From NCBI GenBank assembly GCA_902559305.1, contig CACEHK010000010.1, forward strand, positions 1-33,640: DNA of 33,640 nucleotides, written 5' to 3'. Shown here in pieces: positions 25,568-25,936 of the stretch; position 1 is the stretch's first letter, and each line of letters begins with the position of its first letter. Under the pieces are notes generated by a model, which ran no database searches, was not told the origin of the DNA, and saw only the letters and a list, made by a program, of their open reading frames with translations. Source of the stretch: an uncultured Pelagibacteraceae bacterium (GTDB taxonomy: Bacteria; Pseudomonadota; Alphaproteobacteria; Pelagibacterales; Pelagibacteraceae). The position numbers were made by a program, and so were the translations under genes.

Positions 25568-25936
25568 ATGGCAACAGTAAATGTAACAGATGAGAATTTT
25601 GAGACGGAAGTCATTAAAGCTGGTAAACCAGTTATAGTTGACTTTTGGGCGGAATGGTGTCGATAGCCCCCTGATCTTTTGATCAGGGGGCTATCGACAT
25701 AAACTTGAGGACCTTGTAAACAAATTGCACCGACGTTAGAAGAAATCTCTAATGAGATGGCAAATGATGTTGTAATTGCAAAACACAACATTGATAATGA
25801 ACCTAATACTCCTACAAAATATGGTATTAGAGGAATTCCTACGATGCTACTTTTTTCTGGTGGAGAATTAAAAGCTACCAAAGTTGGAGCAACTACAAAA
25901 TCAAATATTGTTTCTTGGATAAAAGAAAATATTTAA
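25568..25936 (+). pseudogene. trxA: Thioredoxin gene interrupted by a 48-base palindrome
   Basis: Codons 1-31 give a normal thioredoxin start ending in [10 protein letters not shown]. After the insert the gene resumes in the same frame with GPCKQIAPTLEEIS, then KYGIRGIPTMLLFSGG with the cis-proline, and ends SWIKENI. Without the insert the protein is 106 aa with the WCGPC redox site, the usual length. The 48 extra bases (25661-25708) separate the first Cys from Gly and read CGA-TAG first, so ordinary translation stops after 32 residues. The stop codon overlaps that of convergent folC by 4 bases; trxA is commonly a neighbour of folC in alphaproteobacteria. It is dead unless the insert is bypassed, removed or artefactual. 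Confidence 0.9.
25658..25708 (+). repeat. GC-rich perfect inverted repeat inserted in trxA
   Basis: The arms TGTCGATAGCCCCCTGATC (25658-25676) and GATCAGGGGGCTATCGACA (25681-25699) are perfect 19-bp complements around a TTTT loop; one more G-U pair is possible. The first three bases, TGT, are the host Cys codon. A nine-base tail TAAACTTGA follows before trxA resumes at GGA. In the thioredoxin frame it contains TAG, TAA and TGA. No target-site duplication is visible. Its GC content is far above that of the surroundings, and no other copy was noticed in this window. Confidence 0.9.

Follow-up and report, generated by a model that had tools for sequence, protein, structure and literature searches.

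A thioredoxin gene split by a hairpin in its active site

The window, the whole stretch of 33,640 nt that was analysed, is contig C10 of the assembly of an uncultured Pelagibacteraceae bacterium (G000; 1.08 Mb, 52 contigs, 83% complete). It carries the thioredoxin gene trxA (25568-25936), flanked on one side by a gene encoding exonuclease domains and on the other by one of Mur-ligase type, here called folC; the window's other large ORFs follow one another closely, and no obvious break is visible in them. Within trxA, 48 extra bases at 25661-25708 separate Cys31 (TGT) from Gly32 (GGA), exactly as described in the first-pass annotation, giving the junctions GAA TGG TGT / CGATAGCCCCCTGATCTTTTGATCAGGGGGCTATCGACATAAACTTGA / GGA CCT TGT AAA. 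The in-frame reading of the insert given there, CGA TAG ... TAA ACT TGA, also proved correct. The annotation had further described a perfect 19-bp hairpin with a 4-nt loop contained in the 48 bases. The stem is indeed 19 bp with 100% complementary arms and 4 nt between them, but it is not confined to the insert: the exon's own TGT pairs with ACA, leaving only 16 of the 19 bp inside the 48 bases, so the codon before the gap sits within the stem. The features of the locus, in window coordinates, are:

25568-25660, + strand: 5´ part of trxA, codons 1-31 (M...EWC), differing by 1 residue from the intact thioredoxin P0001
25658-25660, + strand: putative take-off codon TGT (Cys31) at the base of the stem, from sequence, fold and the table of inserts
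25658-25676, + strand: 5´ arm of the 19-bp stem, from arm complementarity
25661-25708, + strand: 48-nt insert and putative coding gap, missing from intact relatives (e.g. L009, L010, L021)
25664-25666, + strand: in-frame stop TAG, the second codon of the insert
25681-25699, + strand: 3´ arm of the stem, from arm complementarity
25700-25708, + strand: single-stranded tail TAAACTTGA
25706-25708, + strand: putative landing triplet TGA, a 2/3 match to TGT, from comparison of inserts
25709-25936, + strand: 3´ part of trxA, Gly32 to the stop, with the same protein as P0001 and a signal of purifying selection

The segment 25640-25720 has a fold energy of -42 kcal/mol, compared to -19.3 (sd 3.2) for shuffled sequences, and none of 200 shuffles was as stable. 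The arm sequence does not occur a second time within the window, and the pattern GTCGATA...TATCGAC was found nowhere else in the genome assembly.

Inserts are found in trxA of three genera

A DNA search of 201 same-genus genomes detected inserts of 52 nt at the window's codon in both G101 and G118; their hairpins are unlike that of the window yet mostly pair-preserving. A hairpin scan of genome contigs gave 28 stretches, three of them from Pelagibacteraceae with the hairpin in trxA, namely AG-435-J18 (G101), AG-893-J08 (G118) and AG-899-G03 (49 nt); the remaining 25 carry other titles. Covariation among the first four hairpins was slight (37 of 500 shuffles reach the score). A covariance model built from four inserts and run on 399 same-genus genomes added G719, with an insert after Cys31, and G571, with one after Cys34, the two hairpins being alike. 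Weak matches to the model in G152, G158, G174, G145 and G646 were judged by eye to be other hairpins and set aside.

The intact thioredoxin P0001 was then used as a query against the same-genus set of 399 genomes. Among the matches listed, which reach E ~3e-16, a limit beyond which more divergent split genes may lie, 134 of 143 trxA genes are uninterrupted and nine are split (G000, G101, G118, G497, G095, G069, G630, G719 and G571). Further inserts in these genomes are 28 nt after Trp27 in G497 and G069, 29 nt after Ala28 in G095, 46 and 49 nt at Gly70 in G069 and G630, respectively, and a second insert in G719 of 49 nt at Gly73. In genus g4, where 116 of 161 genomes match at E 1e-12, eight split genes were found, five after Cys31 (G544, G474, G408, G426, G392) and three after Gly32 (G347, G394, G517). 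Genus g2 (25 of 31 genomes matched) has two, both after Gly32 (G266, G331). No split trxA was seen among the matches listed for genus g3 (15 of 23 genomes matched) or for genus g15 of family f2 (40 of 43 matched), nor in 24 f2 genomes that largely overlap the g15 set. Collectively, this search of other SAR11 trxA genes, which the first-pass annotation had proposed, yielded 22 inserts. They are distributed over 20 genomes of genera g1, g2 and g4 and occupy seven codons (27, 28, 31, 32, 34, 70, 73).

Several candidates were not counted. The trxA genes of G735 and G747 stop at contig ends, that of G770 (L449), which like G735 is among the g15 matches, has a one-base frameshift, possibly a sequencing error, and the short trxA-like DNA matches in G009, G138, G194, G002, G179, G102, G167 and G143 correspond to no trxA ortholog. 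Shredded trxA copies in genomes without a close trxA were likewise rejected: in a folC-based search of 20 such genomes, in which three gave no usable locus, 17 loci hold a different, uninterrupted allele at this position, as do G127 and G131 beside folC. Of 30 further genomes, 25 gave no match to folC and another three break off within it, and the trxA region is thus missing in those 28. Two very different thioredoxin alleles (~32% identical) occupy one locus beside folC in different SAR11 genomes, the second being uninterrupted in the 19 loci read (L248-L263, L267, L368, L369). We also noted that folC of G065 (L264, L267) has a one-base frameshift, possibly a sequencing error.

The survey bears on two alternatives. 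Amplification can create inverted chimeras, and the AG- codes of the three named carriers are presumably those of single-cell genomes, such that an assembly or amplification artefact, which had been raised at the outset, deserved consideration. We give it almost no credence: the same codon carries different, mostly pair-preserving hairpins in several genomes, inserts are present in three genera, and a codon rule holds at their far end (see below). Alternatively, the insert could be excised from DNA in part of the population, acting as a switch, or the cells could hold an additional intact copy, in keeping with insert-free relatives being the rule among the 143 listed genes. The window genome has five thioredoxin-domain matches, two of which are the halves of the split trxA, and the remaining three carry CNTC, WCAPC and WCAPC motifs. 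The check for a second trxA that had been suggested thus gave no other CGPC thioredoxin in this 83%-complete genome. In addition, inserts differ between sister genomes, like standing sequence, and we regard a DNA-level switch or second copy as very improbable.

Inserts share a hairpin and an early stop

All 22 inserts fold into a hairpin, and in 20 of them the stem extends into the preceding codon by one base or more. Lengths range from 28 to 52 nt, with 9, 11 and 2 inserts being 0, 1 and 2 mod 3. Since 13 of the 22 lengths, though not the window's 48, are not divisible by three, read-through of the stop cannot explain the inserts, and the frame would generally be restored only if the gap is skipped. 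A stop is present at the first or second codon of 19 of the 22 inserts (at the first in five, at the second in the window), and in the ten inserts after Cys31 the early stop is always there, as TAG, TAA or TGA. The three inserts without an early stop are those of G095 and G630 (stop at codon 8 in both) and that of G719 at Gly73 (none in frame). The tail after the stem is 1-13 nt long; many tails have TAAA or another A-rich run between the stem and the landing triplet.

Removal of the inserts from RNA before translation, by an unknown splicing or cut-and-ligate process, would restore the protein whatever the insert length, and a hairpin in every insert would suit such a process. Only six of the 22 inserts force the cut onto a codon boundary; in the other 16 it can slide with the protein unchanged, so that removal could take place off the codon boundary. 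Against removal, inspection of the 22-insert table by eye revealed no boundary sequence common across sites at either end. Rfam at gathering scores, applied to 15 sources, matched only three tRNAs, all in the window, and no structured RNA or intron family.

Likeness of the pre-gap codon and the triplet ahead of the resume codon

We compared the codon before each gap with the triplet immediately preceding the resume codon, the presumptive landing triplet. With wobble allowed, 49 of 66 positions match, compared to 18.2 expected from neighbouring triplets, and 0 of 200,000 draws, which ignore relatedness, were as high as 49. At Gly sites we set the boundaries so that a Gly codon stood on either side, a choice that favours matching; the 14 non-Gly inserts match at 26 of 42 positions (11.9 expected, p 2e-5). 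When one insert per hairpin family and site was retained, 25 of 33 positions match (9.2 expected), or 11 of 18 without Gly (5.3 expected, p 0.005). The resemblance extends across seven sites and several dissimilar hairpins.

Exact identity of the two codons is rare. Bases 1, 2 and 3 are strictly identical in 12, 21 and 4 of the 22 inserts, respectively, with the third base in the same purine/pyrimidine class in 16 (49 - 12 - 21). UGU and UGA of the window match at 2/3 positions, and G101, AG-899-G03 and G544 at only 1/3. Outside the codon, the three preceding bases are identical in 0, 0 and 2 of 22 and the next base after it in 2 of 22; the second base after it is identical in 10 of 22 (3 of 11 when each family is counted once), mostly owing to the C31 family. 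Strong agreement at the middle base, with the third base conserved by wobble class, is expected from codon-anticodon re-pairing but not from a target duplication. Removal at the RNA level does not predict this codon-rule similarity of the ends either, and we consider it unlikely.

Split genes among compared ORFs are limited to trxA

To define how specific the inserts are, we cross-compared ~426 kb, comprising the window and stretches of G118, G069, G719, G630, G497 and G095, with 16 folC loci as extra targets. Among the 422 ORFs in these parts of seven genomes, of which 227 could be matched across genomes over 80% or more of their length, split matches were observed in trxA alone, by a test that caught six of nine known inserts and missed that of G000, that of G497 and the first of G719. 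The byp elements, which we take to be the bypassed inserts of Magnusiomyces capitatus mitochondria, interrupt many genes of one genome; in the parts of genomes compared here trxA alone was seen to be interrupted, and the inserts appear to be trxA-focused.

Further copies, a trait of REP and IS200/IS605 elements, were not found outside trxA with the pattern (G000, G118) or the model (G000, G101, G118), and the dispersed mobile element considered initially accordingly fares worse as an account of the insert. A viral source was also explored and set aside: scanning viral contigs with a pattern returned 119 stretches, and among the best-folding 45 of 144 matches no viral one resembled the hairpin of the window. 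The W27 element had no match in viral contigs. Separately, two converging ORFs of an uncultured bacterium were seen to flank a perfect palindrome of 46 bases (L172:3747-3792), which has C-rich arms and the same outer ends (TGTCGATA...TATCGACA).

Codons downstream of the inserts are conserved

For ten pairs with a common insert site, which are not independent since five fall within one group of four genomes, downstream dN/dS is 0.012-0.061 with dS of 0.28-1.76. The underlying synonymous and non-synonymous differences are 18 and 1 for G000/G101, 28 and 5 for G118/AG-899-G03, 11-20.5 and 2-4.5 for five pairs among G474, G408, G426 and G392, 31 and 10 for G347/G394, 15.5 and 3.5 for G266/G331, and 34 and 17 for G497/G069. 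The distant same-site pair G118/G000 gave a higher ratio, 0.241/1.572 (33 synonymous, 36 non-synonymous). Judged from these substitution patterns, the codons downstream of the inserts are under strong purifying selection; selection that acted before insertion would leave the same mark if the inserts spread after the genes diverged.

The ten carriers placed in a tree of 62 trxA genes, which left out the g2 and g4 carriers, appear to fall in several separate places among intact genes. The 5´ and 3´ parts differ in relatedness: in codons 1-31, G118 and AG-899-G03 are 85-89% identical to G000 and G101, compared to only 68-71% in codons 32-106, and among 249 intact pairs that are just as far apart in codons 32-106, 13 have so close a 5´ part. 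The 5´ part (L020, L169) was thus probably exchanged between lineages. The insert may have travelled together with codons 1-31, but the intact G603 is as close to G118 in that region (90.3%) as the carriers are.

The scattered distribution of carriers, together with the similar hairpins that follow Cys31 in G719 and Cys34 in G571, gives the inserts a mobile look and would suit plain disruption, in which trxA is a pseudogene, the inserts are small palindromic mobile elements and the end similarity is a decayed target duplication. The low dN/dS downstream argues against this interpretation, as do the end similarity, which lies mainly in codon bases 1 and 2 with base 3 following wobble class, unlike a duplication, and the failure to find copies outside trxA in the searches described above. 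Disruption, another of the initial alternatives, is therefore quite improbable in our assessment.

Programmed bypassing as the probable explanation

What the DNA contains is a hairpin-bearing gap in which an in-frame stop comes early, flanked on either side by coding sequence under selection, and a take-off-like triplet before the resume codon. Given these features, trxA of the window probably makes normal thioredoxin via programmed translational bypassing. A ribosome would translate up to Cys31 (UGU), where the stop two codons ahead and refolding of the stem-loop would cause peptidyl-tRNA(Cys) to release UGU. The mRNA would then slide through without being decoded, the tRNA would re-pair at the near-cognate UGA (25706-25708), and decoding would restart at GGA (Gly32) to give EWC-GPCK. 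This route, from UGU to a near-cognate UGA by a gene-60- or byp-like bypass, was suggested in the first-pass annotation and, on the comparison of 22 inserts, is the reading best supported. As in known bypasses, a non-coding gap lies between selected parts of one frame, landing matches take-off as a group (49/66 vs 18.2), and the take-off codon is in a stem-loop by at least one base (20/22). Recurrent bypassing is likewise the best reading of the inserts across SAR11 trxA genes, in which similar gaps would have arisen or moved repeatedly.

T7-like phages use host thioredoxin as a processivity factor, and one may speculate by analogy that the inserts affect such phages. We put forward, as a tentative and rather doubtful proposal, that SAR11 trxA holds a gene-specific family of bypass elements, hairpins that recur in its two most conserved segments, are tolerated because ribosomes hop, and are perhaps kept as a nuclease shield or as a throttle on T7-like phages that use host thioredoxin.

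If confirmed, these observations would represent recurrent ribosome hopping in a bacterial housekeeping gene. The 22 inserts offer natural variation in take-off, stop, stem, tail and landing within a small redox enzyme, in bacteria that are very abundant in the ocean, making the rules of hopping directly testable, and they raise the question of why thioredoxin is the gene struck. They also serve as a warning that annotation may label such split genes as broken.

Comparison with known bypassing systems

Among the matches listed in a search of open-access titles and abstract openings, a scope mostly outside subscription papers and preprints, none was on bypassing in SAR11 trxA. According to the portion of PMC5009743 drawn on here and below, the efficient bypassing known so far comes mainly from a single phage gene and from yeast mitochondria. 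Analyzed with the same script, T4 gene 60 has its take-off GGA in a stem, UAG next, a 50-nt gap and landing at GGA. It resembles trxA in the pre-gap codon within a short stem-loop, the early stop, the gap of ~50 nt, a landing triplet that matches the take-off codon and resumption at the next codon (PMC5009743, in part). In contrast to gene 60, trxA is a cellular housekeeping gene with mostly longer stems and seven sites, its landing triplet is often near-cognate, and the stop is more often the second codon than the first; we note the likeness and claim no homology. Bypassing is stimulated by a nascent-peptide signal and a Shine-Dalgarno-like element before the landing site, and the gene 60 insert has been proposed to protect against a homing nuclease (both from the same part of PMC5009743). 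By analogy, and as speculation, the trxA inserts may protect against a nuclease.

Two further systems described in that source invite comparison. The adhesin gene of Prevotella loescheii, with a reported 29-nt hop, is like trxA a candidate on a bacterial chromosome, and its gap is similar in size; it is a report without follow-up as presented in that part of PMC5009743, whereas trxA has 22 inserts and comparative sequence evidence. The mitochondrial inserts of Magnusiomyces capitatus are, like those of trxA, short skipped blocks whose take-off and landing codons do not always match perfectly, but they number 81 in 12 of 15 mitochondrial protein genes (PMC5009743, in part), while the inserts described here occur so far in one bacterial gene.
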